The notes under the pieces were generated by a model. It had not been told where the DNA came from, did no database searches, and saw nothing but the letters and a program-made list of their open reading frames with translations. Below are positions 1 to 18,354 of a stretch of DNA of 64,000 nt, in pieces. Numbering within the stretch: the stretch's first letter is position 1; each line of letters opens with the position of its first letter. A program made the position numbers and the translations under genes. The stretch comes from Planctomycetaceae bacterium (GTDB taxonomy: Bacteria > Planctomycetota > Planctomycetia > Planctomycetales > Planctomycetaceae), in the NCBI GenBank assembly GCA_900299185.1, contig OMIV01000254.1:1-64000 (forward strand), read 5' to 3'.

Positions 1-1
1 C

Positions 2-1495
2 AACCTGCCGTTCCCGGTGACCTTTCGAGGAGACTCGGGAGCCAAGAGCGGTGGCAGCGCCCCGGCAGGCAAAGGCGCGAAGAAGGCCAAAGCCGGCCCG
101 ACTGTCGGAGCGATCGAACGAGCGTCGGCATTGGGATTGTCCGACTTCCCAGAACGACTCGAATCCGAACTTTCCAACGGCAAGCTCGATGTACCCGGTG
201 CAGTGACGGGCAGCATCGAAACTCGCTTCGGGACCGACCGCTATCAAGCATCCTTCAAGAAAGCCGAGAAGTGGGTGATCCGCGCCGAGGCTCGCGCCCT
301 CGGTTCGCCGCTCGATCTGGATCTCGTGCTGCTGAATGCCGAAGGCAAGCAACTTGTCGCTCAAGAAGATGCTCCGGGGTCGACCGATCCTGAACTCGAA
401 TTCGTCGTGCCTGCCGATGGCGATTATCAGATCGTGCTCACTGACCGTTCGGGCTTCAGTGGTTCGAAAGCCGCGAACTATCGCCTGGTGCTCGAACCGG
501 TCGACGAAGACTTCTCGATCGCCCTGCCGCCGCTGCAAGCTGTTGCCATTGGTGCCACGGCCAAAGTGCCGCTGAAGGCGACTCGCCAAGGTGGCTTCGC
601 TGGTGCCATCACATTGCAGATCACCGGGTTGCCGGACGGTGTCACCGTTCCTACAGAGCTGCTGATCGCCGAGAAGAAGGTCGATCTCTCGCTGGACATC
701 ACCGCTGCCGCCGATGCTCCGGCCACGGCAACTCTGGCGGAAGTCACTGCAACGGCGACGCTCAATGGTCAGAGCATGACTCGGTCGCTCGGCAAGTTTG
801 TGATCGCCACCACCATGAAGCCGCGCATCAAGATCGTGCCGGACGGACTCGACGATGTTCGCAAAGTGCATCGCGGCAGCACCTACTTGGCACCACTCAC
901 CATCGAACGCTTGGAAGGCTTTCAAGGCGAGATCGTCCTAGAGATGACGTCCAAGCAGCAGCGACATCGGCAAGGACTGGCCAGCGGCGAGTACGTGGTG
1001 AAAGCCGACGCCTCGCGAGTGGACTATCCGATCTTCGTGCCCGAGTGGATGGAGACCACCAAGACCAGCCGCATGATCTTGAACGGCTCGGTGAAAGTGG
1101 CCGATCCCAAAGGCAACGTCAGAACGTTGCTGCAACGGCAAGAGATGCGCATCGGCATCTTGCCCGAAGGCGCGTTGCTCAAACTCAGTCACAACGCCGG
1201 CGAGCCGGTCCTTAAGCCCGGAGCAGAGATCACCATCCCGCTGACGATCTCGCGAGCCGAAAGCTTGCGTGACCCGGTCCGTCTCTCGTTGTCGAATCAA
1301 GAAGTCGCCAATCGAGCTTTCACTGCGGAACCCATCGTCCTGAATGCCGATCGCAAGGACACGGACTTCAAGGTGCGACTCGCCGCCAATTCGGGCGCGA
1401 TCATGGGAGAAGTCCCGATCGTCATTCGTGCGGAGTCCACCAAAGACGGCTTGCCGGTCATCTCGGAAACGACCGTGCTCGTTACGATTCGCTAA
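2..1495 (+). CDS. PPC-domain (pre-peptidase C-terminal) secreted protein, 3' part
   Basis: The frame is open to the left edge, so this is the C-terminal part (about 497 residues) of a longer protein whose start lies outside the window. Residues 60-165 or so look like a bacterial pre-peptidase C-terminal (PPC) domain: a GSIETRFGTDRY strand, DLDLVLLNAEG and a closing DGDYQIVLTDRSG block. Two or three Ig-like beta-sandwich stretches of alternating hydrophobic residues follow. In planctomycetes such tails sit on secreted proteins that often carry cytochrome c or DUF1549-type domains at the N-terminus; that part cannot be seen here. The gene ends 13 bases before the DUF692 gene on the same strand, so co-transcription is possible. 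PPC is a moderately confident call; the function of the whole protein is unknown. Confidence 0.7.
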   Translation, partial: NLPFPVTFRGDSGAKSGGSAPAGKGAKKAKAGPTVGAIERASALGLSDFPERLESELSNGKLDVPGAVTGSIETRFGTDRYQASFKKAEKWVIRAEARALGSPLDLDLVLLNAEGKQLVAQEDAPGSTDPELEFVVPADGDYQIVLTDRSGFSGSKAANYRLVLEPVDEDFSIALPPLQAVAIGATAKVPLKATRQGGFAGAITLQITGLPDGVTVPTELLIAEKKVDLSLDITAAADAPATATLAEVTATATLNGQSMTRSLGKFVIATTMKPRIKIVPDGLDDVRKVHRGSTYLAPLTIERLEGFQGEIVLEMTSKQQRHRQGLASGEYVVKADASRVDYPIFVPEWMETTKTSRMILNGSVKVADPKGNVRTLLQRQEMRIGILPEGALLKLSHNAGEPVLKPGAEITIPLTISRAESLRDPVRLSLSNQEVANRAFTAEPIVLNADRKDTDFKVRLAANSGAIMGEVPIVIRAESTKDGLPVISETTVLVTIR

Positions 1496-1508
1496 CTCTA
1501 GCCACTCC

Positions 1509-2486
1509 ATGAGAGCGACATCACTTGGGACTTCCGACCGTATGACTGCGACGAACTCTTTGACGCCCCGACTGGGCTACCCTCATCTGGGATTCGGCGT
1601 CGGCCTGCGTGCGACTCATTACCCCTACATCTTGGAGCATGAGCCAGCGGTCGATTGGTTCGAGATCATCTCTGAGAACTACATGGATTCGCAGGGCCGA
1701 CCGCGCTACGTCCTGGAACAGATTGCCGAGCGATACCCAGTTGTCATGCACGGCGTTTCGTTGTCGATCGGCAGTACCGATCCACTCAACTTGGAATATC
1801 TCGCACGTCTGAAGCGACTGGCCGCATGGACGCAAGCCGTTTGGATTTCGGACCACATTTGTTGGACCGGGGTCAACGGCGTCAACGGGCACGACTTGCT
1901 ACCGCTGCCCTACAACGACGAATCCTTGAACCATGTCATCGCGCGAGTACGGCAAGTGCAGGACTATTTGGAACGCCCGTTGGTCCTCGAAAACCCCAGC
2001 AGCTACGTCACGTTCCGCGAATCGACCATGACCGAGTGGGACTTCGCAACCTCCCTTTGCGAGGCAACCGGCTGCGGCCTGTTGCTCGACGTCAACAACG
2101 TCTTCGTGAGTTGCTTCAATCACGATCTCGATCCGCTGGAGTTCATCCGCTCGCTGCCCCATGACCGCATCGTGCAGTTCCATTTGGCCGGGCACACGCA
2201 CTGCGGCACTCACATCATCGACACTCACGACAACTTCGTGATCGACCAAGTGTGGGAATTATTCCGGTTGGCTCATGAGCTGACCGGCGGCGTCTCAACC
2301 TTGCTGGAATGGGACGCCAACATCCCTGACTTCAAGACCGTGCATGCCGAAGTCTTGAAGGCTCGCGACTTCATGCACGCCACACCGATGAACCGACCGC
2401 AGGTCACGGAGTCGCTGAAGATCGAACCGCAGCGACGACGAGCAGTTCCGCAACCCGCATCCTTCATTACGGCGGAGGCCGAATGA
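1509..2486 (+). CDS. DUF692 / multinuclear non-haem iron oxidase (MNIO, BufB/MbnB-like)
   Basis: A TIM-barrel enzyme of the DUF692 family (325 residues; 314 if the ATG at 1542 is used). Characterised members bind two or three iron ions and oxidatively modify cysteines or other residues of a ribosomally made precursor peptide. Ligand-type motifs are in the usual order: VMHGVSLSIG (His81), WISDHICW, LVLENPSSY, LLLDVNNV, QFHLAGHTH, IIDTHD and LLEWDANIPD. All His/Asp/Glu positions I would expect appear intact, so it should be active. Its stop overlaps the start of the DUF2063 gene (ATGA), the typical BufB-BufC arrangement. No BufA-like (DUF2282) or other Cys-rich precursor is visible next to it. 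The open frame extends upstream to 1344 inside the previous gene; that extension is not family-like. Neither candidate start has a strong ribosome site. Confidence 0.9.
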   Translation: MRATSLGTSDRMTATNSLTPRLGYPHLGFGVGLRATHYPYILEHEPAVDWFEIISENYMDSQGRPRYVLEQIAERYPVVMHGVSLSIGSTDPLNLEYLARLKRLAAWTQAVWISDHICWTGVNGVNGHDLLPLPYNDESLNHVIARVRQVQDYLERPLVLENPSSYVTFRESTMTEWDFATSLCEATGCGLLLDVNNVFVSCFNHDLDPLEFIRSLPHDRIVQFHLAGHTHCGTHIIDTHDNFVIDQVWELFRLAHELTGGVSTLLEWDANIPDFKTVHAEVLKARDFMHATPMNRPQVTESLKIEPQRRRAVPQPASFITAEAE

Positions 2487-3406
2487 TGACGCTGCACTCG
2501 TTGCAAAGTTGGATGCAGGCTGTTGTCACTCATCCCTCGGGAATCGTGGCGGGCATCAACTCGGATGCCGCCCAAGCATGGGCTGGCGTCAGTGTTGAAA
2601 ACATCGAGTCGATCATCGGTCGGTCGCAGTCGCTGGGCAGCGTTGAACGACTTGCGGTCTACGGCAACGCGTACTTCGCCAGGCTATTGGAATGCTTGGG
2701 CGAAGAGTTCCCCGCCGTGAAGCAACTGCTCGGCGAAGACGCCTTCAACACCATTGGCTTTCAATATCTGCAAGCGTGCCCGTCCCGTAGCTACACATTG
2801 AATGAGCTTGGTCGCAGCTTCCCCAACTTCTTGCGTGAGACTCGACCGCAGGACGTTCCCGCTCCGAGTTGGCCAGACCTGTTGATCAACCTTGCGACGG
2901 TCGAACGAACTTACTCCGAAGTCTTCGATGGCACCGGCATCGAACCACTCGATGACGCCGACGCGGATTCGTCGACCTGGGCCAAGCTGTTAGCAGCCGG
3001 ATTCCGCGCGTTGACTCCCGATGAATTGGCGGCGATTGGTCCCGAGGACATGGGAGCGATTCAGTTGCAAGCAGCACCATGCTTGAGACTGCTGACGCTC
3101 GACTTCCCGGCCCATGAATTCATCTCGGCATTACGCCGGTCCGAGAACGCCGAAGTCACTCCCCCACCTGCTCAGCCAACATTGCTGGTCGTCACTCGTC
3201 GCGACTTTGTTGTACGTCGCTCGGTTGTTTCGAAGTTTGAGTTCGCGGTGCTCCAAGCGTTGCTCGCCGGAGAGTCGCTCAGCGCAGCTCTGCAAACGGC
3301 CGCGGACTTCGCGAGTGATGACTTGCCCTCGAGCACCAACATCGCCGCTGGCTTTGAAGGCTGGGTCAAAGCTCGCTGGTTCATCGGCTTCAAGTTGGCG
3401 AACTAA
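2483..3406 (+). CDS. DUF2063 (HvfC/BufC-type) MNIO partner protein
   Basis: 307 residues. The N-terminal ~100 residues fit the DUF2063 'putative DNA-binding' fold, with LQSWMQAVV, the hallmark VYGNAYFARLLECLGEEFPAVKQLLGE given here in shortened form (RLLECLGEEFPAV), and a following LNELGRSFPNFL helix. The C-terminal half is divergent and ends in a winged-helix-like VLQALLAGESLSAALQ stretch. In described systems this protein works as a recognition/partner subunit of the adjacent DUF692 enzyme, probably presenting the precursor peptide; DNA binding was only a database label. It overlaps the upstream DUF692 gene by 4 bp, implying translational coupling. Two adjacent ATG codons (2483 and 2486) follow a GGAGG site; the second has the better spacing. 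It converges with the YfiR gene 13 bp away, with no clear terminator between. Confidence 0.86.
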   Translation: MMTLHSLQSWMQAVVTHPSGIVAGINSDAAQAWAGVSVENIESIIGRSQSLGSVERLAVYGNAYFARLLECLGEEFPAVKQLLGEDAFNTIGFQYLQACPSRSYTLNELGRSFPNFLRETRPQDVPAPSWPDLLINLATVERTYSEVFDGTGIEPLDDADADSSTWAKLLAAGFRALTPDELAAIGPEDMGAIQLQAAPCLRLLTLDFPAHEFISALRRSENAEVTPPPAQPTLLVVTRRDFVVRRSVVSKFEFAVLQALLAGESLSAALQTAADFASDDLPSSTNIAAGFEGWVKARWFIGFKLAN

Positions 3407-3419
3407 CCGTGCTTCGCGA

Positions 3420-3983
3420 TTAGGGCATACCCACCATCGTGGTAGGCCGATGCAGCTTGTAAGCAATCTTTTGCAGCCGCGCATCGAAGCTCAGACCGGC
3501 GTTCGTAGCAGCGGTCACATTGAGTTCGAACTTGATCGTCTCTTCAACTCGGGCCAAGAAGACTGACGCGCCATCTTCGACCGAAGTGGGAGCATCAGAC
3601 AAGATCAGCACCGGTTGGCCTCGGTACTTCTTCACGGCAGCTTGCAACCGGGCTCGATCCGCTTCGGTCTCACCCGCGACAAACAGCATCTGCGGAATGC
3701 CCGCTTGCTCTAGCTTCTCAATGCGAACGACTTGCACCGGTAAGCCATTGATCTTGGCGGCAGCGAATGATTTAAGCGTCTCTTCGTTTGGGTAATCGCC
3801 CCAGATCACAAGCGTCATGACTTTCGGAGGATCCTTGGCCGGCCATCGCACATAACTGCCGAGCTTGTAGAGATAGGCCGCCTTCACCGCGTACTCATCC
3901 AATGTTGCTGCAGACGCGCAGTGACCCGCGAGGGCACTCAGCAGCGCGAAGCAAGCAATCAGGAATGAGCGACGAGCTAACAC
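3420..3983 (-). CDS. YfiR family (DUF4154) periplasmic protein
   Basis: 187 residues with a clear Sec signal peptide (MLARRSFLIACFALLSALAG, cleavage near ASA-ATL). The mature part begins with the DUF4154 signature EYAVKAAYLYKLGSYVRWP and has the RARLQAAVKKYRGQPVLILSDAP segment followed by VFLARVEETIKFELNV, matching the YfiR fold. Pseudomonas YfiR restrains the diguanylate cyclase YfiN in the periplasm. In planctomycetes and other phyla DUF4154 genes often lie next to TonB-dependent receptors, as here: it starts 63 bp after the receptor stop on the same strand, so the two are probably one operon. No cyclase or histidine kinase partner lies in the window. Family assignment is firm; partner and signal are unknown. 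Confidence 0.85.
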   Translation of the reverse strand: MLARRSFLIACFALLSALAGHCASAATLDEYAVKAAYLYKLGSYVRWPAKDPPKVMTLVIWGDYPNEETLKSFAAAKINGLPVQVVRIEKLEQAGIPQMLFVAGETEADRARLQAAVKKYRGQPVLILSDAPTSVEDGASVFLARVEETIKFELNVTAATNAGLSFDARLQKIAYKLHRPTTMVGMP

Positions 3984-4046
3984 GGTAATTCCGAAAGTCC
4001 GAGGTTAAAGAAGCAGACCAAACAAGACGGCCAACACAGGCGAGCG

Positions 4047-6485
4047 TTAGTAAGTGATCTCCGTTCCAAAGATGTAAGAGATGCCCGGCTCAGGCAGGAA
4101 CGTGGGGCGACCATCAGGACCAGTGATGGCCAGCGAGCCGTGCTGTCGGTACTTGGTATCGGTGAAGTTCTCGATGCCGGCCGTGATGCGCCAGCGCTCG
4201 GTCGGGCGGACGTAGCCTCGCAGCGAGAACACCGCAAAGCCGTCGGTCGGGCGTTCGGAAACCGAACGAGCCACTCGGTTCTGATCAGCCACCAAGCGCG
4301 TCACGAGAGCCAAGCTCCAGAGGTCGTCTTCCGGTTGGAAGATGCGAGTGGTGATAGTCGCATTCAGCGGATAGATCCCCGGCAACGGTTCGGAACCACC
4401 GATGCTCCTAAACGAACCATTGCGGCTATCGAAGGTGCCACTGTCGGGCACGAAGGTCATAGGGTTTTGATTCACCGCATGGACGTAGGCGATCGCCCCT
4501 CGCACAGACAGCCACTCTTGCGGCAACACTTCCACAAAGGCGTCAGTGCCCAGAATGTCGACTCGATCCAGGTTGGTGTATTGGTAACCAACCGAGCTGA
4601 TGTCTGCGTTCACGCCGCCAGAAGCCAAGTCGTCTCGTTGTGACGGATCGAACGCAGAGAAGTCACGTCCCAAGAAGTTGGTAGCGATGGCGGGATCGAC
4701 TCCGGGATAGACCTGAGATGGCACCGCCATGATGTAGTTGCGGATGTGCGAGTAGAACCCGCGAGCACCGAACTTCAGAGGTCCGTCGTCCGCAGTGATG
4801 CCCAAGTCCAACTGCAAATTGCGTTCGGGTTCGAGATTGGAAAGCCCGTCGGTGAAGCTGTTGCCGAAACGGTACGCCGGCTCGTAAGGCTCGTCTTGAT
4901 AAAGCTCTGGCAATGTCGGAGCACGCATCGCGAACGCAATGCCGCCTGTAATTCGAATTGCATCCGTCAAGTCGTGAGTGGTCGACGAATACAGCATTCC
5001 CAAGAAGTGGTTGGGAGTCGACAACCCTGGGCGATAGTTCGTGATCGCAGCCGAGCTGCCACTATTCGAGGCCGAAATCACTTCGTCGTTGGACCTCACA
5101 TTCGACTGCACGAAGTCGATGCGTCCGCCCAAAGTGCTCTTGGTCTGGTCGTCCCAAGTGCGAGCCAAATGCGTCAGCAATCCAAAGTCATCCTGCCACG
5201 ACTTCGGAATGCCATACACGTTGCCGCCGAACGCGAGATTGCCATTCACTTCGAAATTGTGTTCGTCGTACCGCTGGATGTAGCGCCGCCAATCCGCACC
5301 GAAGGTCAACTGCAGATCGTCCGCATCGCCCACTGTGGAATAGAGCCGCGTGCCCATCGTGTTGAGCAGACCTTTTCCAAACGTTGTCGCCTGAGCTGTC
5401 GACGGATCAGTTGGGTTCGTCGTCGAGAGCGTCATGAAGTCGCGATAGAACGAGCGTTGCTTCCCGCCGGCCAATGAGTCGCCGTGGTATTGCGTGTCGG
5501 TCCACCAGCCTTGCAGCACCAATCGATCGGGTCCGTTCCGCTCGTCGTGAATGACGTAGCGCACATTGAATTGATCGTTGTGAGAGTTGTTGAGGTCATA
5601 CGAGATACCGGGCAGTTCGAGTCCGTTGATCTCCGTGCGCAGGTAATTGAACTCCAACCGCGACACGTCATTGAAGTCGTGACTCAACGCCGTGTAGACG
5701 TCCCACTTCTGATAGCTCGACGGGACTTCGAAACCGTCCTTGCCGCCTGTCGTGTAGTCGTTGCCGGTCCGCAGTCCGTAACTGACATAAGCTCCGGTGG
5801 TGTCGTTGCCGACCCAACCATTCTTGCGAACGTAGAACGCTTCGCCGTTGGTGCCGTAATTCGTAATCAACGACCCACCGACAGAATTGCGGGGAGCCTT
5901 AAACAGCTCGGCCTCAATGAAGGAAAAGCCCGGACCAAACAAAGACGAGTACGGCCCATCCATCACCGTGACCCACTCCACTACTCCGGGGTCGATCTGA
6001 CTAAACAGCGAGTCGATATCCACGCGCGACTTAAGCTGATTCACGCCATTAGCCGTCGCCGCAATCTGGCGACCGTGATAGCCACGAACGGACGCATCGA
6101 GATTGAGAGCCGAGGTGCGGCGTGTATTCACGCTCGCAGCTTTGTCGAGCAGTTCGCCAGTCGTGCTGGAGCCAGCGAAGTCAGAGTCGGCAGAATCCAA
6201 CACCGTCGACGCGCCTTGAGTCGGAGCATGATTGGACTGCTTCTGCACTTTGACAGAGCCCAACGCTTCCAGATCCAAGTCGAGAAGATCATCAGCCTTT
6301 TCGGACTTCGCATTGGGATCGCCTGGCGATTCCGCGCTCGCATCCGAGTTGTCTTCCAGTGCGAGAGAGCCTTCTAACAGAGCCGCCCAAGCGCGCCCCG
6401 ATCCACGGTCTAGGCCGTAAAACGCCACGGCAAACAAGACCGCCATAACCCCACAGCTCAGGGGCAAGGACCGTCGAAACTTCAT
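4047..6485 (-). CDS. TonB-dependent outer-membrane receptor
   Basis: 812 residues from the ATG at 6485, preferred over an upstream start at 6512 because a basic, hydrophobic signal sequence (MKFRRSLPLSCGVMAVLFAV) begins exactly there. A plug domain lies at roughly residues 90-210 (LLDKAASVNTRR, SVRGYHGRQIA, VEWVTVMDGPYSSLFGPG). It is followed by a 22-strand-type barrel with aromatic-rich turns and many LRTGNDYTTGG-like loops, and it ends in EPGISYIFGTEITY, a typical outer-membrane C-terminus with a terminal aromatic. An acidic Asp/Glu-rich stretch between signal and plug could hold the TonB box. Such receptors import iron chelates, B12 or glycans with energy from TonB; the substrate cannot be named. 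It is followed by the YfiR gene in a likely two-gene operon. Confidence 0.9.
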   Translation of the reverse strand: MKFRRSLPLSCGVMAVLFAVAFYGLDRGSGRAWAALLEGSLALEDNSDASAESPGDPNAKSEKADDLLDLDLEALGSVKVQKQSNHAPTQGASTVLDSADSDFAGSSTTGELLDKAASVNTRRTSALNLDASVRGYHGRQIAATANGVNQLKSRVDIDSLFSQIDPGVVEWVTVMDGPYSSLFGPGFSFIEAELFKAPRNSVGGSLITNYGTNGEAFYVRKNGWVGNDTTGAYVSYGLRTGNDYTTGGKDGFEVPSSYQKWDVYTALSHDFNDVSRLEFNYLRTEINGLELPGISYDLNNSHNDQFNVRYVIHDERNGPDRLVLQGWWTDTQYHGDSLAGGKQRSFYRDFMTLSTTNPTDPSTAQATTFGKGLLNTMGTRLYSTVGDADDLQLTFGADWRRYIQRYDEHNFEVNGNLAFGGNVYGIPKSWQDDFGLLTHLARTWDDQTKSTLGGRIDFVQSNVRSNDEVISASNSGSSAAITNYRPGLSTPNHFLGMLYSSTTHDLTDAIRITGGIAFAMRAPTLPELYQDEPYEPAYRFGNSFTDGLSNLEPERNLQLDLGITADDGPLKFGARGFYSHIRNYIMAVPSQVYPGVDPAIATNFLGRDFSAFDPSQRDDLASGGVNADISSVGYQYTNLDRVDILGTDAFVEVLPQEWLSVRGAIAYVHAVNQNPMTFVPDSGTFDSRNGSFRSIGGSEPLPGIYPLNATITTRIFQPEDDLWSLALVTRLVADQNRVARSVSERPTDGFAVFSLRGYVRPTERWRITAGIENFTDTKYRQHGSLAITGPDGRPTFLPEPGISYIFGTEITY

Positions 6486-7158
6486 GTTGCACCGCACTTC
6501 AAGACATACCATTCGAGGTGCCGCCCGAGATCAAAGAACAGCGTGAACCGTTCGTGTCTCGTCGTGACCAGTTACCCGAGTTCATCTTCCAATCACGACT
6601 ATGCCCATCGGTCTTCCGGGCAGAGCTGCTACTTTCGAGACAAGTCAGATAACTCGGACAAAGAGACTCACGGACATTGGTGCGCCTTGGGAACTCATGC
6701 AGAAGCCGAGCAATACCTCCGCGCCATCTTTCCCGGACCATGCGAACTCACGATGTCTCGTCTGAAGAATTGCCTCCGATGCGGAGGCCAGAACGCACTC
6801 AAGCTTTGACCAAGATCTGAGGTCAACCGTCTTGTCCCCCTAGCCCCCCTAGTGAGAGTGGTTAGCGGTGAGAGGCACTCACCAGCGACCTTCATCAACA
6901 TGGGAGCGTTTGGCCTTTGTCGCCGAAGGACTGCACCACACACATCACTGCCTCACTGCTGCGAGCTGTCCTTGGTTGCCCCTCACCCCCGGCCCCTCTC
7001 CCCATAGGGGCGAGGGGAGCTTTTGGGGGAAAGCTGAGTTAGTGAGAGCTGGCACCTGCTCTCGATGTGGGCGATGTCGGTCTGCTGTTTCGTTCGCTGG
7101 CACCAGCCACCAGAATCCGCCGTCCGTGCTTCGCAGAGTCTGTGGCCGAGGAGCGTCG
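6486..7158. other. Divergent intergenic region
   Basis: About 670 bases between the TonB receptor and the sigma-factor gene, which are transcribed away from each other, so promoters for both should lie here. Open frames in it have no family-like sequence. The recognisable contents are a C/G-rich palindromic element at 6979-7020 and short C-rich runs near 6836-6850. I see no confident -35/-10 pair. Confidence 0.6.
6979..7020. repeat. GC-rich palindromic (REP-like) element
   Basis: Nested inverted repeat: CCCCTC at 6979-6984 pairs with GAGGGG at 7012-7017, and inside it CCCC at 7000-7003 pairs with GGGG at 7007-7010. The right arm AGGGGCGAGGGGAGC is nearly identical (14 of 15 bases) to the right arm of an element inside the giant haem protein gene at 41733-41771, so this is a dispersed repeat family and not a local terminator. 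Confidence 0.7.
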
Positions 7159-7758
7159 ATGAGCAGCGCTGGAAACTTTCAAGAACTACTAAATCGCATT
7201 CGCACCGGAGACGCAGTGGCGGCTGAGGAGCTGGTGCGAACCTATGAGCCAGAACTGCGACGCGCCATTCGAGTCCGTCTGACGGATGCTCGCTTGCGGC
7301 GCTTGGTGGACTCGATCGACATCTGCCAGTCGGTCCTCGCGGGCTTCTTCGTGCGGACCGCCGCCGGCCAATTCGATGTCGAGTCGCCCGAAGAACTTTT
7401 GAAGCTGCTGGTGACGATGGCCCGAAACCGAGTCATTGATTGGGCTCGCCGCAGTCAGGCCGATCGGCGCGATGGACGCCGCAACGTGTCGCTGGAAGAC
7501 GCCGATGGCCAGGTCAGGCCATTGGCTTCCCAACAAGAAGGCCCCGTCACCGTGCTGGTGAATCGCGAACTGCTGGAGAAGGTTCGCAGTCGGCTCAATC
7601 TCGATGAACTCAAGCTGATGGAGGACCGAGCCGACGGCAGAAATTGGAACGAGATCGCTGCCGAAACTGGCGAGCAACCCAATGCCGTGCGGATGCGATT
7701 GACTCGAGCACTCGACCGAGTGGCTGAAGAGTTGGGATTGGAGGAGTCACGTGGCTAA
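7159..7758 (+). CDS. ECF-type RNA polymerase sigma factor
   Basis: 199 residues from the ATG at 7159, placed 4 bp after a GAGGAG site. The open frame continues upstream to 6868, but that extension runs through the palindromic repeat and is not sigma-like. Region 2 is seen in AVAAEELVRTYEPELRRAIR and WARRSQADRRDGRR; region 4 in DELKLMEDRADGRNWNEIA followed by the helix-turn-helix TGEQPNAVRMRLTRALD. Extracytoplasmic-function sigma factors of this planctomycete kind are genetically linked to Ser/Thr kinases in place of classical membrane anti-sigma factors. Here the kinase gene starts within the last 8 bases of this gene, so the two are translationally coupled. The likely scheme is phosphorylation-controlled sigma activity; the target promoters are unknown. 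Confidence 0.9.
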   Translation: MSSAGNFQELLNRIRTGDAVAAEELVRTYEPELRRAIRVRLTDARLRRLVDSIDICQSVLAGFFVRTAAGQFDVESPEELLKLLVTMARNRVIDWARRSQADRRDGRRNVSLEDADGQVRPLASQQEGPVTVLVNRELLEKVRSRLNLDELKLMEDRADGRNWNEIAAETGEQPNAVRMRLTRALDRVAEELGLEESRG

Positions 7759-10700
7759 TCCGACTCCCCCTTCATCATCGACGAACTTGAGATCGACGAG
7801 TCCATCAAGCGATCGTCATTCGGTCTCGCGCGATGGCAACTCGCTGCCAACATCGACAATGGCAACGCATCCGCTCGACGTTCAGAACAACATCGAAAGC
7901 TTGTCGGTCTCTCTCAGTGATCGCATCGAGTTCTTAGCTCAAGAGCTGCGTGCTCGTTGGCGAGCCGGTCGACACATCAAGATCGAAGCCTTCGGCTCGA
8001 TGTTTGAAGAGGTCGCACAGAACACCGAACAACTGCTCGACCTGATCTATCACGAGATTCTGATTCGCGAAGAATTCAACGACCCAGCGGCGCTCGACGA
8101 GTATGTGGAACGATTCCCACTGCATGCGGAAAGCCTGGAGCGACTGTTCGCCGTACATGGAGCGTTGGCCGACGAAAGTTGGAGTGCCGATCTCAACGCA
8201 GCGTTGGGTGATAATCCCGAGGAAGCTGACGATGAGATTGAATCCTCAGAAGTGTCTTCGCCTCGTCGTACCGTCGCCGAAGGTTCGGATGGCCGTAGCA
8301 AGGCCACGTGGCCGCGCAAGTCGCGCAGCACGCGACATGTCGATCCGCCGCCGGGCTATGAACTCTTGGAAGAGATCGGTCGAGGCGGCATGGCTGTTGT
8401 GTTTCGCGCACGGCAGCAGGTTCTCAATCGCATCGTCGCGCTCAAGATGTTGCTCGGCGGCAAGATCGCATCGACCGAAACGCTGGCTCGCTTACAGCAA
8501 GAAGCTCGCGCGGTGGCGCAGTTGCAACATCCCGGCATCGTGCAAATCCACGAAGTCGGCGAGCATCAAGGTCTGCCCTATCTCTCGCTGGAGTATGTCC
8601 CCGGCGGCAAGTTGCATAACTGGCTGCGAGGTCGCCCACTTGCGGCCATCGAAGCAGCACAAATCATCGAGCAACTGGCGCGAACCATCGCGTTCGCTCA
8701 TGAGCGCGGCATCGTTCATCGCGATCTCAAGCCCGCCAACATCTTGCTAACAGAGCTTCCCGCAGAGACTCAGTCGAGCACTACCGTCCCCAACACGCGT
8801 TTGTCGCATCAGTCCACGCCGTCATTCAACGTGACGCCCATGAAGATCAGCGACTTCGGGTTAGCTCGAATGAGCGACGACCAAAGCGATCTCACGGCCA
8901 CCGGCCAAGTCCTGGGAACACCCAGCTACATGGCTCCCGAACAAGCTTCGGGGCAAGGTGATGCCGTCGGACCGGCGCTCGATATCTATTCGCTCGGCGC
9001 GATCCTCTACGAACTTCTGACAGGCCGGCCTCCATTCCGCGGAGCCACCTTGCTGGAAACTCTGGAGCAAGTTCGCAACGACGATCCCGTGCCGCCCCGG
9101 CACTTGCAACCACGCACTCCCCGAGACATCGAAACGATCTGTTTGAAGTGCTTAGAGAAGAGTCCCTCGCGCCGATACGAGTCTGCCACTGCACTCGCGC
9201 TTGATCTCAGCAGCTTCATCAATGGGGAATCTATCTCCGCTCGACCAGCCGGAACGATTGAGCGTTGCCGCAAGCTGATTCGCAAGAACCCGACGGTCGC
9301 AGTGCTCACGAGCCTCTTGGCTTTGATGGTGATCTTGAGTGAGGCCGCCATTCTTCGCGAAGCACGCCGCGCCAATGAGAACGAGAAGGTCGCGATCGCC
9401 GACAGTCGTCGAGCTTTGGCCGCAGTGGAAGAAGCCAATGCCGAGAGAATTCGGGCACAACAATCTGCGGCCATCGCAGAAACCGAACGACGCAAAGCTG
9501 ACGAAGAACGAACTCGCGCCGTGTTCGCTCAAGCAGAAGCCGAAATGAGCTTTGAACGAACTTTAAAGGCCATCAATTCGCTCGCCGAACTTGGCACCGC
9601 GTTGCAACATCAGCCGGGCCAGCAAGTCATCAGCAAGCGGCTGCTCACCAACACGTTGGCGCTCTACAACGAGTTCGCCAGCGAGAGGTCCGATAAGCCA
9701 GAGATTCGCCGCCGCCAGATCATCGTGCTCATCGGAGCTGGGGAAGCTCATCGCGTCATTCATGACGATGCGCAGGCCGAGAAGTTGTTGAGGCAAGCCG
9801 CCACCTTGCTGGAAAAGGAATTACAACTAACTCCTCAAGACGTCGAACTGCATGCTCGCGCGGCACGAGCGTCGACGGCGTTGGGTGCTGTCCTAAAAAG
9901 CGTCGAGCGTTGGACGGAGTGTCTCGCAGCCTACGAGGATGCAGACAGCGCCTTCGCGACCGCGAGCAAACTCCAACCCGACGAGGCGGCCTACATCCAT
10001 GGCCGAGTTAACTCGCTGGTCAGTCAGTGCGCAGCGCTCAACGAACTTGAACGACTTGACGAAGCACTGCGTCGCTACGAGCAAGTATTTGCTTTGGCTC
10101 GACCACTCAGTAGCCAACGAGCTGACGACCGGTTCGTTCAAGCCTCGCTGGCCAACGCGTTGCATCAGTATTCGCAGCTTCTGCGTCGCATGAATCGTGA
10201 TCGCGAAGCGGAAGCAGCGGCGACGGAAGCACTCACAATCCGTGAACAGGTCCTGGCGGCCAATCCGAACCTACCCGAAGCGCGATTCGCGATCGTTCGA
10301 AGTTGGTTCGACCAAGCGGAACTCGATCGAGCCGCTGGTCGATTTGATGCGTGCATCTCGAAGCTTGTTGATGCCGACGAGCAGATACGGCTTGTCGTGT
10401 TGCTCTTCGCCGACATTTACGACAACCACACGCTGATGTTGAAACTACTGCGGACTCGATTGGATGTCTGCCTGGAGTCGAATCGTGCCGAGCAAGGCTT
10501 TACTGCGTCGCGGCGCGTTGCAGAGCAACTCACCTTTTCACTGCCGCGCTTTCCAAATGATCGGTCACTCCTGCGACAGATGTCGGATTGGGGTTACTTT
10601 CATGGCGAACTGCTCTGGGAACGTAACAACACAGAGTTCGCTGAGATCAGCCATCGAAATGCTTTCGCAGCAATGGAAGCATTCAGCGGTACCTTCGCAG

Positions 10701-11170
10701 ACAAGACGAGTAAGGATGCCTTGGAGTTCTTAAATCAACGTGCCTGGTGCCTCGCCAACACGCCGATGGAGTCTCTGCGGAATGTTTCACTCGCACTCAA
10801 TCTTGCGGCTCGTAGCTTGGAGTACGAGCCGAACAATCCCCATTACCTTCGAACATGCGGCTTGGCGTGGTATCGCTCCGACAAGTTTTCCGAAGCCAAG
10901 AACACGCTACAGAAGGCTGTTGAATTGCTGGATCAAGAAACCATGCAGAGCCAGCAGCCGGACGAAGAAACAACGCGGCTCCGCTCAGCATGTCGAATGA
11001 TTCTGGCGATGTCGGAATGGCGACTTGGTGAGCACGATCAAGCCAGGCAGACTCTGGAACTCGTCAGCGTTCCAAGTCGAGATTTCACGCGCTATGGCCC
11101 CGAGATGCGGCGACTTTACTTTGAGGCGATGAAGATGATGCAGCCTTCCAACCAATCCAAAGCTCGGTGA
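7751..11170 (+). CDS. Membrane-anchored Ser/Thr protein kinase with TPR-like C-terminal region
   Basis: 1139 residues from a GTG at 7751 with a GGAGGAG site 5 bp upstream, overlapping the sigma gene by 8 bp. Residues 1-200 are a low-complexity N-terminus with an acidic stretch. A full Hanks-type kinase domain spans about 203-490: glycine loop IGRGGMAVVF, VALKML lysine, catalytic HRDLKPANIL near 322-331, ISDFGLARM near 366, MAPEQASG and DIYSLGAILYELLTG. All catalytic residues are present. One membrane helix (TVAVLTSLLALMVILSEAAI) lies near 514-534, then an Ala/Glu/Arg-rich coiled coil to about 620, then about 500 residues of TPR-like helical repeats that would lie outside the cytoplasm. The layout suggests the repeat region senses an external signal and controls the overlapping ECF sigma factor. 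Confidence 0.93.
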   Translation: MANPTPPSSSTNLRSTSPSSDRHSVSRDGNSLPTSTMATHPLDVQNNIESLSVSLSDRIEFLAQELRARWRAGRHIKIEAFGSMFEEVAQNTEQLLDLIYHEILIREEFNDPAALDEYVERFPLHAESLERLFAVHGALADESWSADLNAALGDNPEEADDEIESSEVSSPRRTVAEGSDGRSKATWPRKSRSTRHVDPPPGYELLEEIGRGGMAVVFRARQQVLNRIVALKMLLGGKIASTETLARLQQEARAVAQLQHPGIVQIHEVGEHQGLPYLSLEYVPGGKLHNWLRGRPLAAIEAAQIIEQLARTIAFAHERGIVHRDLKPANILLTELPAETQSSTTVPNTRLSHQSTPSFNVTPMKISDFGLARMSDDQSDLTATGQVLGTPSYMAPEQASGQGDAVGPALDIYSLGAILYELLTGRPPFRGATLLETLEQVRNDDPVPPRHLQPRTPRDIETICLKCLEKSPSRRYESATALALDLSSFINGESISARPAGTIERCRKLIRKNPTVAVLTSLLALMVILSEAAILREARRANENEKVAIADSRRALAAVEEANAERIRAQQSAAIAETERRKADEERTRAVFAQAEAEMSFERTLKAINSLAELGTALQHQPGQQVISKRLLTNTLALYNEFASERSDKPEIRRRQIIVLIGAGEAHRVIHDDAQAEKLLRQAATLLEKELQLTPQDVELHARAARASTALGAVLKSVERWTECLAAYEDADSAFATASKLQPDEAAYIHGRVNSLVSQCAALNELERLDEALRRYEQVFALARPLSSQRADDRFVQASLANALHQYSQLLRRMNRDREAEAAATEALTIREQVLAANPNLPEARFAIVRSWFDQAELDRAAGRFDACISKLVDADEQIRLVVLLFADIYDNHTLMLKLLRTRLDVCLESNRAEQGFTASRRVAEQLTFSLPRFPNDRSLLRQMSDWGYFHGELLWERNNTEFAEISHRNAFAAMEAFSGTFADKTSKDALEFLNQRAWCLANTPMESLRNVSLALNLAARSLEYEPNNPHYLRTCGLAWYRSDKFSEAKNTLQKAVELLDQETMQSQQPDEETTRLRSACRMILAMSEWRLGEHDQARQTLELVSVPSRDFTRYGPEMRRLYFEAMKMMQPSNQSKAR

Positions 11171-11213
11171 GTGCGACTCGCTGAGATGTCAGATCTCATA
11201 CACATACCAGCTC

Positions 11214-11699
11214 TTAGCCTTCGATGAAGTCCGTAACTTCAACCGGTTCTTCTCGCGATGAAGTGTGCAACTTCCAGAGCACAAGATTGCCGATCAAGAT
11301 GACTGCGAGTGACGCGAACCACACCCAGCAGCCGGGTTCGAGCGTCTGCATGTAGAGCTTGTTGACTCCGGCTTCGTCGCCGGGGAACTCATTGCCGAAC
11401 ATCGTGAAGACGTTGCAGGCCAACAGCAGCGAGAGCACTCCCAAGACCAGCGATACCTTCCAGCCGCGCAGGGCCATGATCACGGCTGCAAAGAAAATGG
11501 CGACGTTCGCAAACCAAGCGAACTGTCCCATGAAGGCACCGAAGGGACCGAGCATCAAACAACCGATGCCTTGCCACGTCTCGGGTTCTTGATGATTTCT
11601 GGAAAAGCCAATCGCTGGCAACGAGCACGCGACCACGAACAACACAGCGGCCACCGCCAGTATCAGGGCCACAGCCCAACGATGTTGCGACTTAGACAA
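11214..11699 (-). CDS. Small hypothetical integral membrane protein
   Basis: 161 residues with four predicted membrane helices: AVALILAVAAVLFVVACSLPA near the N-terminus, then GCLMLGPFGAFMGQFAWFANVAIFFAAVIMAL (at least one, probably two helices, cited here as LGPFGAFMGQFAWFANVAIF), VSLVLGVLSLLLACNVFTMF, and WVWFASLAVILIGNLVLW near the C-terminus. The tail is short and acidic. I recognise no named family. It lies between the kinase (convergent, 43 bp away) and the DUF1501 gene (same strand, 37 bp upstream), so it may share a transcript with DUF1501. Codon use resembles its neighbours. Confidence 0.65.
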   Translation of the reverse strand: MSKSQHRWAVALILAVAAVLFVVACSLPAIGFSRNHQEPETWQGIGCLMLGPFGAFMGQFAWFANVAIFFAAVIMALRGWKVSLVLGVLSLLLACNVFTMFGNEFPGDEAGVNKLYMQTLEPGCWVWFASLAVILIGNLVLWKLHTSSREEPVEVTDFIEG

Positions 11700-11736
11700 G
11701 TTGAATCCTCGATGTGAGTGAAGTTGAGTCCGAGCC

Positions 11737-13173
11737 TCAGCTCAATAAGTCGGTCAGCACTCGGCCATGCACGTCGGTTAGACGTTGATCGCGGCCGCCG
11801 TGACGGAACGTCAGCCGCTCGTGATTGAGCCCCATCTGATGCAGCAACGTGGCATGGATGTCGTGAATATCGACCGGGTCAGCAACGACGGAATTCCCGA
11901 AGTCGTCGGTCTCGCCATAAGCAAACCCACCTTTGAAACCGCCGCCGGCCATGAAGATCGAGTATGCATTCACATGATGATCGCGGCCCGCGCTGGCATG
12001 CACCGAGGGAGTGTGAGGAGTGCGACCCATCTCTCCCGCCCACAGCACGATGGTCTCATCGAGTAGCCCGCGTTGCTCCAAATCGACAATCAACGCCGCG
12101 ACCGACTGCTCCGTGATCCGCGCGTTCTTCTCATGATTCTGCTTGAGCAAACCGTGTTGGTCCCACGGCGAGTTATTGCCATCAAAGCTCGGGCAGGTGA
12201 TCTCGACGAAACGCACGCCTGCTTCCACCAATCGCCGAGCCCGCAGCGCTTGAGTCGCATACAGCCGCTGATGCTCGTCGGGCGAGTCGACACCATACAT
12301 CTTTTGAATGTGCTCAGGCTCGCGACTGATGTCGGTGACATCTGGCACCGCCGACTGCATGCGGAACGCGGTCTCGTAATTGGCAATCGCGCCTTCGATC
12401 GCTAGAGCATCAGACGTTGTCGCCGCGAACTCGGCATCTTGCTCGGCCAAGAGCGCGAGCTTGCGACGTTGCAAACTGAGCCGATCTGCCTGAGCGATGT
12501 TGTCGACCGGCACTCCCTTTGAACGCACCTGAGTGGCCTGATGACTGGCCGGTAAGAACGAGCTGCCAAAGTTCTCTAGGCCGCCGTTGGGCACCCAATC
12601 ATTGTTGAGCACGACATAGCCCGGCAGGTTCTGATTCTCGGTGCCCAGCCCATACGAGACCCACGCCCCGAAGCTCGGAGCCTGCCCCAAGATGCGACCG
12701 GTATGCAGCAGCAAGTCTTGCTGACCATGCAACGGCAGCTCGCCCACCATCGACCTCACGACACACAGATGATCGGCTTGCTTGGCGATGTTGGGAAACA
12801 AGTCACTCATCACCAGACCGCTGTCGCCCCGTGCTCGAAAGGACCACGGACTGCCGAACCACACTCGATTGGCACTCGACTGAGACCGCTTGCTGACCGC
12901 GCTTTCGCCGATGGGTTTGCCTTCGAACTTCTTGAGCATCGGCTTTTCATCCAGCGAGTCCACGTGACTTGGACCACCATCCATAAAGCAGAACACGATG
13001 CTCTTGGCACGAGGTCGATGATGCCCGCTGCGGTCATTGGTTTTGGCAGCGGCTTGCTGAGCGATGGCCTGCCACGCCAGCCAACCAAATCCCACTCCCG
13101 CCTCTTGCAAGAACGCCCGACGCGACCGACAGCCCTGCCCATCGCAAGCTGCGTGAGTCTCTGAATGAGTCAT
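11737..13173 (-). CDS. DUF1501 domain-containing secreted protein (sulfatase-like fold)
   Basis: 478 residues from the ATG at 13173, which follows a GGGGGAT ribosome site; an in-frame TTG at 13188 is less likely. The N-terminus has a Tat-type signal (SRRAFLQEAGVGFGWLA), typical for DUF1501. Family blocks are clear: FCFMDGGPSHVDSLDEKP, ELPLHGQQDLLLHTGR, FVEITCPSFDGNNSPWDQHG, LWAGEMGRTPH, GRDHHVNAYSIFMAGGG and DIHDIHATLLHQMGLNHERL. The fold is related to alkaline phosphatases and sulfatases, but the activity is unproven. In planctomycetes DUF1501 genes usually directly follow a DUF1549/DUF1553 cytochrome gene. Here that partner type is found only 18 kb away (31895-35011), so this copy is solitary. 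The next gene upstream on this strand is the PQQ-like propeller. Confidence 0.92.
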   Translation of the reverse strand: MTHSETHAACDGQGCRSRRAFLQEAGVGFGWLAWQAIAQQAAAKTNDRSGHHRPRAKSIVFCFMDGGPSHVDSLDEKPMLKKFEGKPIGESAVSKRSQSSANRVWFGSPWSFRARGDSGLVMSDLFPNIAKQADHLCVVRSMVGELPLHGQQDLLLHTGRILGQAPSFGAWVSYGLGTENQNLPGYVVLNNDWVPNGGLENFGSSFLPASHQATQVRSKGVPVDNIAQADRLSLQRRKLALLAEQDAEFAATTSDALAIEGAIANYETAFRMQSAVPDVTDISREPEHIQKMYGVDSPDEHQRLYATQALRARRLVEAGVRFVEITCPSFDGNNSPWDQHGLLKQNHEKNARITEQSVAALIVDLEQRGLLDETIVLWAGEMGRTPHTPSVHASAGRDHHVNAYSIFMAGGGFKGGFAYGETDDFGNSVVADPVDIHDIHATLLHQMGLNHERLTFRHGGRDQRLTDVHGRVLTDLLS

Positions 13174-13263
13174 GTCGAGATCCCCCAAGAAGAATTGAAG
13201 AGCCGTCCGGTTTCGCGCGGCGGTTGATCGTAGCCCAGCCTACGTTCCGTCAAGAGCCAGAGT

Positions 13264-13292
13264 TCGCCTCGTCGAGCCGGAGTGCGAGGCGA
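13264..13292. terminator. Short perfect hairpin
   Basis: TCGCCTCG at 13264-13271 pairs perfectly with CGAGGCGA at 13285-13292 across a 13-base loop. It lies downstream of the PQQ-propeller gene and upstream of DUF1501, both on the minus strand. There is no strong T-run, so termination is only a possibility; it may also be part of the adjacent repeat cluster. Confidence 0.35.
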
Positions 13293-13301
13293 GGTTTGTA
13301 A

Positions 13302-13442
13302 TTTGTAGGGTGTGGACCAGCTCGCGCGGATCGGTGGGCCGGTGCGAGCTAAGTCAAACAGCGACGGCAGTCCGATTCACAATCAATGTGGCATGGCGAG
13401 CGCCGGCCCACCAGTCGATTCGCTCGCTTGTCCCACCCTACT
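13302..13442. repeat. Long imperfect inverted repeat (MITE-like)
   Basis: Left arm 13302-13349 (begins GTAGGGTGTGGACCAGC, includes GGTGGGCCGG) aligns with the reverse complement of right arm 13396-13442 (GCGAGCGCCGGCCCACC ... TCCCACCCTAC), with a ~46-base spacer. The arms are about 47 bases long with only scattered mismatches. It carries no coding sequence, and the arrangement is that of a non-autonomous palindromic element. It lies between the DUF1501 and PQQ-propeller genes. I see no flanking target-site duplication that I can be sure of. Confidence 0.75.
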
Positions 13443-13484
13443 CAAGACCAGAATCGCAAACCTCGCCGGTCGACGCTGCCACAT

Positions 13485-15509
13485 TCAGTACTTCAACTTC
13501 AAGAGCGCGACCGATGCTCCGTAGAACGTCGCGTAGCCCAGCATCTGCCAGCAGCATCGAGTCATCGGAGCGAGCTTTCCCAATCGACGTTGCCACTTTG
13601 CAGAGAGCACCAGAAATGGAAAGGCGACGGGCGGACCTGCGAGGAAAACCCATTCGAAGACCAAGCTCAATCGACGGCACAAAGCAAAATACGTCGCACA
13701 CGTCAGCAAGACACACACCACCGCCAACCGCTCTTTCCAACGCTGCCCGGAAGTGACGAATTGAGTTCGAGACCGTGACTGCGCGACAACGATCTCGAAC
13801 GCCACGAACAGCGTCAGCGGCCAGGTGAAAAGGAACCGCCCGGTCCAACGACTGAGGTACGTCGTTCCCAGAGCAGCAACCACGAAGGTGAATGTGCGAG
13901 CGACTCCATTGGCCCAACTCTGCCGACGATCGAAATCAGTCCGCGCGACAACCAAGCGACTCGTCAGCCCACCGATCATGTGCCCGACCAGCAACATCAA
14001 CTCGGTGATCAAGAACCATTGCCACAGCCACTCGCTCGAAGGCACGTCGAACGCGTACTCGGGCTCGATGGAAAGAATCGCACCGGCCCAGTCCACATAG
14101 TTGGATTGCGGTATGTCAGCGAGACTCATCGTCGTCTTCGGTCGGTCCACGAACAGATCGAGATCCCCGACATACACGCACACGGCTCGCGATTGGTTTC
14201 GCAAGTAGAGGCGGCCTCGATGCAAAGTCGGCGGCGTCCAAACCAACTCGCCGCCCAACACACTGACGCGCGAGACTTCTTCGTAACGCTCGGCGTTAAC
14301 TCGCGCGAGGATCAGCTCGCCAATCTCATTGAGCATCAGCAGCTTGCCATCGGCAACCACCACACCAGCTTGGCCGACATACGGTTCGTTGAAAGGTTCT
14401 TCGAAGGGATCACGGTGGGCTCGCTGAGAACCGACCGACCATTTGATCTTGCCGGTCTCGAAGTCTTGGCAACGAAAGTATCCGCGCGACGGACGCTGAG
14501 TCTTCGACTGCACATCGATGATGTCGAAGCCATAGACGTGCCCATCCACCAGCACGCTGGAAAGCACGTCGTTCGAGAAGTCCGAGTGATGCCACACGCG
14601 ATCCAAGCCAACGACATCCGAGCCCTCTTCAAACTTGGGGATGCGCAGCATCGTCGCACCCGCGCGGAATGGTGCTGCGAACCATAAGTAAGGCTCGCGA
14701 TAAATCGGCCAAGCAGAGTGTTCGTCGTAATGTTCGGACAACTTGACGCGAGCAAGCTGCCGTCCCGTATGCAGATCGCAAACCACGAGCGCGTTCTGAA
14801 GCAAGCCCACCACGCAATCTCGGCCCGCACGTTGGATCGGCAGCAACGGCGTGTAGCTCGCCGGATCATCGCCCGACTTCCACAGCTCGCGACCATCATC
14901 CAAATGCAACGAGACCAGGCTGGCACCCGGACCTCCCACCGCCAGCAAGACTTGTTTCCCCACCACCGTGGGTGAGCAGGCATAACCAAACTCGCAGCCA
15001 GCTCCGTGATACTTCTGGTTCACGTTGACCGACCACACGACGTCGCCAGTGCTGGCACCGAGACAACACACCAACCCGCTCGGCGATGTGAACACGACTT
15101 TGTCCTCGGCCAAAGTCGGAGTCGAACGCGGACCGGGATAAACTCCGACTGGGTCATAGGGCAAGTCGTAGCGATGCTCCCAGATGATGCGTCCGGTATC
15201 GGCGTCCAAACAAACGACGTACTGCCCCGCGAGTGATTGCGTCTGCGTGAAGACACGCCGGCCGTGAGCCACGAACGCCGAATAGCCCTGGCCCAATTCC
15301 TTCACCCACAACACTGGCGGACCAGCTTCCGGCCAGCGTTCCGCCAGCCGCGCTTCCGGTGAGTGTCCGTTGTGATCACGACCTCGCACCGACGGCCAGC
15401 CAACATCATCCACACCTTCGGGCAGAAACGAATTCTGAGCCCGTAGGTCCAGAGAACTAAGAGCCCAAGCAACGACGACCAACAAAACTCGGCAAACATC
15501 ACGGCACAT
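13485..15509 (-). CDS. PQQ-like beta-propeller protein with C-terminal membrane domain
   Basis: 674 residues from the ATG at 15509, chosen because a signal peptide (MCRDVCRVLLVVVAWALSSL, cleavage after LRA) starts there behind a GGAAGG site. The frame stays open to 15719, but the extra sequence is not signal-like. Residues ~30-430 are a PQQ-type beta-propeller: VVCLDADTGRIIWEH, RSTPTLAEDKVVFTSP, VCCLGASTGDVVWSVNV, VSLHLDDGRELWKSGDD and VVCDLHTGRQLARVKL are successive blades with the usual D.G..W pattern. The last ~200 residues hold five or six hydrophobic helices ending in LGYATFYGASVALLKLKY. Planctomycete relatives are annotated only as PQQ-binding-like repeat proteins; cofactor binding is not shown. 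The membrane tail is unusual and suggests a propeller held on the outer face of the inner membrane. Confidence 0.85.
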   Translation of the reverse strand: MCRDVCRVLLVVVAWALSSLDLRAQNSFLPEGVDDVGWPSVRGRDHNGHSPEARLAERWPEAGPPVLWVKELGQGYSAFVAHGRRVFTQTQSLAGQYVVCLDADTGRIIWEHRYDLPYDPVGVYPGPRSTPTLAEDKVVFTSPSGLVCCLGASTGDVVWSVNVNQKYHGAGCEFGYACSPTVVGKQVLLAVGGPGASLVSLHLDDGRELWKSGDDPASYTPLLPIQRAGRDCVVGLLQNALVVCDLHTGRQLARVKLSEHYDEHSAWPIYREPYLWFAAPFRAGATMLRIPKFEEGSDVVGLDRVWHHSDFSNDVLSSVLVDGHVYGFDIIDVQSKTQRPSRGYFRCQDFETGKIKWSVGSQRAHRDPFEEPFNEPYVGQAGVVVADGKLLMLNEIGELILARVNAERYEEVSRVSVLGGELVWTPPTLHRGRLYLRNQSRAVCVYVGDLDLFVDRPKTTMSLADIPQSNYVDWAGAILSIEPEYAFDVPSSEWLWQWFLITELMLLVGHMIGGLTSRLVVARTDFDRRQSWANGVARTFTFVVAALGTTYLSRWTGRFLFTWPLTLFVAFEIVVAQSRSRTQFVTSGQRWKERLAVVCVLLTCATYFALCRRLSLVFEWVFLAGPPVAFPFLVLSAKWQRRLGKLAPMTRCCWQMLGYATFYGASVALLKLKY

Positions 15510-15825
15510 CGCACGGCCCTTCCGATAACGACACCGTTCTTCGCAGCCAGGACGGTATTCATCGAGTCCCCAACCGGACCAGATTTGAATACCGGTGGAT
15601 TGAGCGATTATCGAGATTGTTGAACTCGGTCTCCCGAGGGACGCATCCATTTTGATGTGTCTAATTCGGTCCGTCTTATTGACCTCCCGAGAACTAAAAG
15701 TGAGCCTAGTCAAAGCCATGCTTCATTCGGGACCGCGCTAACGCAGGTAGCAAGACGTTCTTACCGACAGCCACACTTCGTGTATCCGTTCTTACTCTTA
15801 GAACAGCCAACCCGAGATTTAACCA
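15510..15825. other. Divergent intergenic region
   Basis: 316 bases between the PQQ-propeller gene and the acyl-carrier-like gene, which point away from each other. In-frame extensions of the PQQ gene cover most of it but look non-coding. No repeat, hairpin or clear promoter was recognised. An in-frame TAA at 15820-15822 closes the reading frame just before the start of the next gene. Confidence 0.5.
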
Positions 15826-16623
15826 ATGGGCATCGATCTGTTAGACGTCACATTTCGATTAGAGAAACAGCTCGATCGCAAACTACCAACCACACTGCTT
15901 TGGCCGCTTTGTATTGAGAACGTTTCGACCAATCCGAGCCAAACGGTTCTCGACATTCGAGTAAGCCGACTACATGAACGTCTTTGCGAAATCATGAATG
16001 TCACCCCGTCTCCAATTCAGGCGCTCGAACCGACGCGTGAGCGAGTCATGAAGTCGATTCAGGAGTGTCTTGGCTGTGACTCTCAAGCTATTCAGCTTGA
16101 GTCCCGATTGAATGACATCATCCCGATACGAGACAGAGAGAAGTATTGGTTTCTGATTTCCCAATCATTGGGCTACTACTGTGTGCCGTGGCTCACTCGA
16201 TCCTGGGCGTATGAGATCGTGTGTATTGTCTTATTCTTCGGCAGCATTACGGGAGTCGGGCTCACCTATATCTCGCTTAAGCAACCGATGCGTTCCGGCG
16301 CATTCATTTCACTTACAGTCTCGTTAACCGCTCTTTGTGTCATCGGCTTCTGGTTCTTTCGTCGTTGGCCAAAATTGACGCGCTTCCCTCCGAATCTCAC
16401 CACAGTCGACGACCTCGCGAGAATGATCGCGTTTGGTCAGCTTGAAGAGCCGTTGTCTTTGAAGAACCCGCCTGAGTCTTCCGAAACACCGAGTGAATCA
16501 GTCGAGTGGACCGAAGAGCGATTGTGGACTGTCTTGGTCGGAGTTCTGGTCGACAGTCTCGGCGTCGATGAAGAAGAAGTCGTTCCAGACGCGACCCTCA
16601 TCAAAGACTTGGGATGCACTTAG
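15826..16623 (+). CDS. Membrane protein with split acyl-carrier-like ends
   Basis: 265 residues. The first 20 residues (MGIDLLDVTFRLEKQLDRKL) read like helix II of an acyl carrier protein directly after the phosphopantetheine serine. The last ~37 residues (VLVDSLGVDEEEVVPDATLI, then KDLGCT and stop) read like helix I and the loop leading up to that serine. The two ends are therefore complementary halves, broken at the modification site, and no attachment serine is present. Between them are a second divergent ACP-like stretch (residues ~70-110, RVMKSIQECLGCDSQAIQLE), two membrane helices (about 130-152 and 157-178) and TVDDLARMIAFG, like an ACP C-terminus. Base composition looks more A/T-rich than in the neighbours. 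It could be a circularly permuted carrier, a remnant of a tandem array, or a decayed gene. Coding status is likely; function is unknown. Confidence 0.6.
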   Translation: MGIDLLDVTFRLEKQLDRKLPTTLLWPLCIENVSTNPSQTVLDIRVSRLHERLCEIMNVTPSPIQALEPTRERVMKSIQECLGCDSQAIQLESRLNDIIPIRDREKYWFLISQSLGYYCVPWLTRSWAYEIVCIVLFFGSITGVGLTYISLKQPMRSGAFISLTVSLTALCVIGFWFFRRWPKLTRFPPNLTTVDDLARMIAFGQLEEPLSLKNPPESSETPSESVEWTEERLWTVLVGVLVDSLGVDEEEVVPDATLIKDLGCT

Positions 16624-16716
16624 TCAATGCAACTCATTTGCCGTGCGTGAGTCGCTGCCGTCCAATGCGCAGGTTCTTTGGTCGTCACCATTCTTGGACC
16701 GCTTTGGGAGCCCTGC

Positions 16717-18141: not shown

Positions 18142-18354
18142 GAATCCCACGACAACTCACATCCCGGTATCAGCTCAACGCGAACTGTATCGATCAGTGT
18201 CCCGGCAGAATCGTCTCGGAAGAGTTCAGCTCTCGAACCTTCAACAATTCATCCTCTCTTTGTTCGCTGTGCCTCTGTGTTTCGAGTTCTTGGCCGTTCG
18301 CTGGGAATCACGTCGAGAGCAGAGATTTCAAACAAGTGGAAGAAAGAATTCACC

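Follow-up and report, generated by a model that had tools for sequence, protein, structure and literature searches.

A BufB-BufC bufferin maturase pair in a planctomycete genome, with its probable precursor gene on another contig

Main finding

The two adjacent genes at positions 1509 to 3406 of the window (the whole stretch of 64,000 nucleotides that was analysed, bases 1-64000 of contig C254, which has 83,753 bases and belongs to a 7.87 Mb assembly of 383 contigs) encode an ordinary bufferin maturase (BufB) and its DUF2063 partner (BufC). Bufferins are small cysteine-rich metal-binding proteins, and BufBC are their maturase pair. We consider it very probable that the pair acts on a single BufA2-like precursor encoded in trans, on a different contig of the same genome (C272:17406-17870). 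The features discussed below, in the window unless another contig is named, are as follows.

2..1495, + strand: C-terminal part of a PPC-domain protein, 13 bp upstream of BufB, not counted in the system
1509..2486, + strand: BufB-type MNIO (DUF692) maturase (NF050167, PF05114)
2483..3406, + strand: BufC-type DUF2063 partner (PF09836)
3420-6512, - strand: YfiR-like (DUF4154) gene and TonB-dependent receptor gene, convergent to BufC
G000:C272:17406-17870 (L093:9407-9871), + strand: BufA2-like precursor, found by a whole-genome search with alignment A1
G000:C190:50046-50699 (L057:10017-10847), - strand: second, divergent MNIO (PF05114, 121 bits)

The maturase pair

The window MNIO, read from its first ATG at 1509 (translation could also start downstream, from the ATG at 1542), scores 359.5 bits against the NCBIfam model MNIO_BufB (NF050167; curated cut-off 310) and 361 bits against Pfam PF05114, and lies below the cut-offs for HvfB, MbnB, ApyH and ChrH. 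Matches to it are present in 28 of 59 related genomes, most of the best ones at more than 60% identity, and the BufB proteins of relatives share 60-75% identity with it. The earlier note on this DNA had described the ligand motifs of the enzyme as intact, and this is borne out by comparison: the ligand-type residues H81, D115/H116, E161, D194/N196/N197, H225, H229, D238, H240 and E267 are invariant or nearly so across 44 BufB relatives, and the motifs, by which the iron ligands were assigned rather than from a structure of the enzyme itself, align with those of H. somni 3BWW.

The partner protein scores 74.2 bits against PF09836 (cut-off 27.2). Its gene directly adjoins that of BufB, and the 4-bp overlap reported earlier agrees with the coordinates (2483-2486). 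It is the sole DUF2063 gene in its own genome; exactly one such gene was found in each of the 14 genomes checked, and in most relatives a homologous BufC adjoins BufB. A search of BufC against the PDB matched only an unrelated designed protein.

The convergent YfiR-like and TonB-dependent receptor genes were considered as parts of the system and set aside, as neither was found near BufB in relatives. The same DNA also encodes a sigma factor that matches a Planctomycetaceae-specific model below its cut-off, as well as PPC and DUF1501-like proteins, a gene content in keeping with a planctomycete origin.

A BufA2-like precursor in the same genome

Up to 20 kb was read around close BufB matches in relatives. 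In most of them the gene directly upstream of BufB is conserved and encodes a protein of some 140-190 aa that carries an RRxF signal and nine core cysteines and, as a rule, a lipobox-like GC. An alignment of 15 precursors (A1) shows both arginines and the phenylalanine of the motif and all nine cysteines to be invariant, and 14 of these precursors match the NCBIfam BufA2 model NF050166 (best 4e-09); three precursors scored singly all fall below the cut-off of this model. The RRxF motif stands in the signal-like N-terminus of 23 of 24 precursors, and some precursors pass or approach TAT-signal models. These N-terminal features suggest that the precursor may be exported by Tat and lipidated. Fuller clusters of precursor, BufB, BufC and a DoxX/HvfX-like gene were seen in two genomes (G032, L050:11552-13966; G110, L122:6971-10900), and G110 carries two precursor genes.

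When the genome of the window was searched with the 15-member alignment, it gave one strong match (C272:17409-17867, E = 2.4e-56). The encoded protein has 154 aa counted from its ATG, with an RRxF Tat-type signal, a lipobox-like Cys and nine core cysteines, and its closest relative is the precursor of G031 (67%). It scores 27.9 bits (E 2e-06) against NF050166, where the cut-off is 60, and we therefore term it BufA2-like and not BufA2; its nine invariant core cysteines also differ from the 6 or 12 conserved cysteines expected of BufA2. Downstream lie a gene for a PLP enzyme, probably trpB, and then trpA. C272 appears to come from the same organism as the window, judging from its GC content (0.563 versus 0.569) and its YidC-like gene, which is nearest to that of the congener G001 (56%), followed by G387, G031 and G350; contamination as the source of this contig is unsupported on the same grounds. 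C272 and C254 are separate contigs of a fragmented assembly.

The earlier note had left three possibilities for the substrate: a precursor elsewhere, the upstream protein, or a different role for the pair, with a non-peptide or large-protein substrate as the novelty. The first of these agrees with the precursor on C272. The presence of this distant precursor in the same genome makes a new kind of substrate unnecessary, and the proposal of a non-peptide or large-protein substrate is left unsupported.

Co-occurrence and separation of the genes

In a survey of 398 genomes from the class, BufB and a precursor occur together in 102, a precursor alone in three, BufB alone in one and neither in 292; these are raw counts that take no account of kinship, so that the Fisher p-value computed from them overstates independence. 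The near one-to-one pattern holds over about 50 genera. One of the three precursor-only genomes (G295) does possess BufB, which adjoins the precursor but is truncated where the contig stops; a precursor without BufB was found in G223 and G225, and BufB without a precursor in G178, an incomplete genome.

In 81 of these 102 genomes a precursor is found no more than 3 kb from BufB; in the other 21 the two are unlinked, mostly on different contigs. The separation is more than an assembly effect, because in G226, a single contig, BufB and the precursor are 2.98 Mb apart. Unlinked genomes cluster on the BufB tree, and about eight changes of linkage (bootstrap range 5-9) are required to explain their distribution, two of them forced by well-supported branches. 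The window BufB groups, with moderate support, with those of G020, G350, G387 and G031, all of which are unlinked. The DUF2063 gene also stands apart from BufB in several genomes (G251, G226, G034, G209, G011, G165 and others); in G251, for example, BufC is at 4.93 Mb and BufB at 6.32 Mb. All three bufferin genes can, then, be dispersed. Taken together, the co-occurrence, the single copy of the precursor and the gene order in relatives suggest that the window BufBC act on the C272 precursor.

Alternative explanations

Alternatively, the pair could be an orphan that has a different role or acts on a different substrate, the C272 precursor being left unmodified or handled by the MNIO on C190. 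This second MNIO is a real feature of the genome, no Cys-rich precursor is visible beside it, and the C272 precursor is a conceivable substrate for it. However, precursor and BufB occur together almost one to one, the precursor in relatives adjoins BufB and not the divergent MNIOs, and the C190 enzyme reaches only 109 bits against the BufB model, well short of the cut-off of 310; we regard an orphan pair as quite improbable. The gene upstream of the C190 MNIO encodes a 211-aa product resembling MOSC-domain proteins.

It is still less probable, with only a very slight chance in our estimate, that a standard precursor adjoins the pair and is concealed by misassembly or by the end of the contig. 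Window and contig share their first base, and the left side was invisible to the earlier note, which had named a standard BufA-type precursor just outside the window as what would speak against its reading. The contig end, however, falls inside the PPC gene, and through this split gene we located contig C323, which ends in the other, N-terminal half, as the left neighbour of C254. Set against the unbroken 782-aa protein of G001, the two parts abut where they should, and hardly any residues are lost between them. The contigs share no overlap, and their order is inferred from this homology; since the frame shifts when C323 and C254 are joined directly, the junction probably lacks a few bases. 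C323 carries no precursor, and the whole-genome search returned the C272 precursor only. Within positions 1-20000 of the window no small Cys-rich frame with bufferin-like spacing was found, in keeping with the absence of such a frame beside the pair that had been noted before.

The upstream PPC-domain protein as a large substrate of BufBC is, at the same slight level, highly unlikely. The upstream frame ends at 1495 and BufB starts at 1509, which agrees with the 13-bp gap on the same strand given earlier, and the two may share one transcript. The frame itself matches the PPC model weakly (16.4 bits; cut-off 25.9), but the full-length orthologue in the congener G001 scores 41 bits and is clearly PPC, which upholds the identification of the fragment as the C-terminal part of such a protein. 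Also, G031 and G387 carry a distant PPC paralogue (27%) downstream of BufC, in the opposite orientation. Against this, the 497-aa fragment contains no cysteine, its orthologue (72%) is present in G001, which lacks both BufB and the precursor, and the two genes are apart in G019 (one contig; 2.06 vs 4.75 Mb) and in the other genomes that have both. The C272 precursor, moreover, accounts for the enzyme without the PPC protein, which we reject as the substrate. The paralogue of G031 and G387 (L033:14903-16225 and L112:9876-11288) is not orthologous to the window PPC gene.

Comparison with known systems

The maturase pair and its proposed precursor on C272 most resemble the Bufferin 2 (BufA2-BufB-BufC) clusters described by Antoine et al. 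(2025, Microb Genom, PMC12452194). The two have in common a BufB, which in the window scores above the curated cut-off, a DUF2063 partner, a Cys-rich, putatively exported precursor with C-G repeat motifs matching BufA2, and occasionally a DoxX/HvfX-like gene. In contrast to the described bufferins, which have Sec signals and 6 or 12 cysteines (PMC12452194), the precursor here has an RRxF Tat-type signal and nine invariant core cysteines, scores below the BufA2 cut-off and is encoded on a different contig from the enzymes. The terms 'twin-arginine' and 'Tat' are absent from the text of that paper, supplements aside, and a literature search for Tat-exported or planctomycete bufferins returned unrelated papers only ('bufferin' also matches 'buffering'). 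The same study reports that a sizeable share of bufferin precursors is unlinked to MNIO genes and that single enzyme pairs may in some cases serve distant precursors.

The HvfABC/oxazolin system of Haemophilus influenzae (PMC13419390) likewise combines a related MNIO with a DUF2063-type partner, and the motifs holding N175, D242 and H244 of HvfB are preserved in the window enzyme. However, against the HvfB model this enzyme reaches 249.9 bits (cut-off 360), and for its partner the score is 48 against a cut-off of 142.

TIGR04222 membrane proteins are also associated with MNIOs, with an example from the planctomycete Pirellula staleyi (PMC12452194); these pairs are similar to ours in being MNIO-associated and in occurring in a planctomycete, but contain divergent MNIOs, whereas the window has a BufB pair. 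In two relatives (G025 and G002), divergent MNIOs (L058:9024-9881, L059:6744-7640) have membrane proteins with Gly/Cys-rich tails upstream, an arrangement that resembles the TIGR04222-MNIO pairs.

Proposed mechanism and implications

By analogy with the characterised bufferins and HvfBC (PMC12452194, PMC13419390), BufC would bind the precursor and present it to BufB. As in the characterised bufferins, the multi-iron centre of BufB would then oxidise precursor cysteines, most likely to thiooxazoles, and the modified product would be exported to the envelope, where it may buffer copper or a similar metal outside the cytoplasm. The chemistry, metal and function of the window system are all proposed here from such likeness.

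The novelty that remains is modest and lies in the precursor, with its RRxF Tat-type signal, nine core cysteines and score under the BufA2 cut-off. We tentatively suggest, with somewhat less than even confidence, that planctomycete-type genomes possess a distinct subclass of nine-Cys, BufA2-like, Tat-exported lipoprotein precursors that would be modified, and perhaps folded and metal-loaded, by BufB-BufC in the cytoplasm, their genes being often dispersed and yet forming a functional trio.

The assignment removes a supposed orphan MNIO, together with the need for a large-protein substrate. Mining of gene neighbourhoods would overlook roughly one in five pairs of precursor and maturase in the class (21/102 genomes). 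If the Tat-type signal is real, it would become possible to test whether a bufferin is exported after its modification and perhaps metal loading, the bufferins described so far being Sec-dependent.
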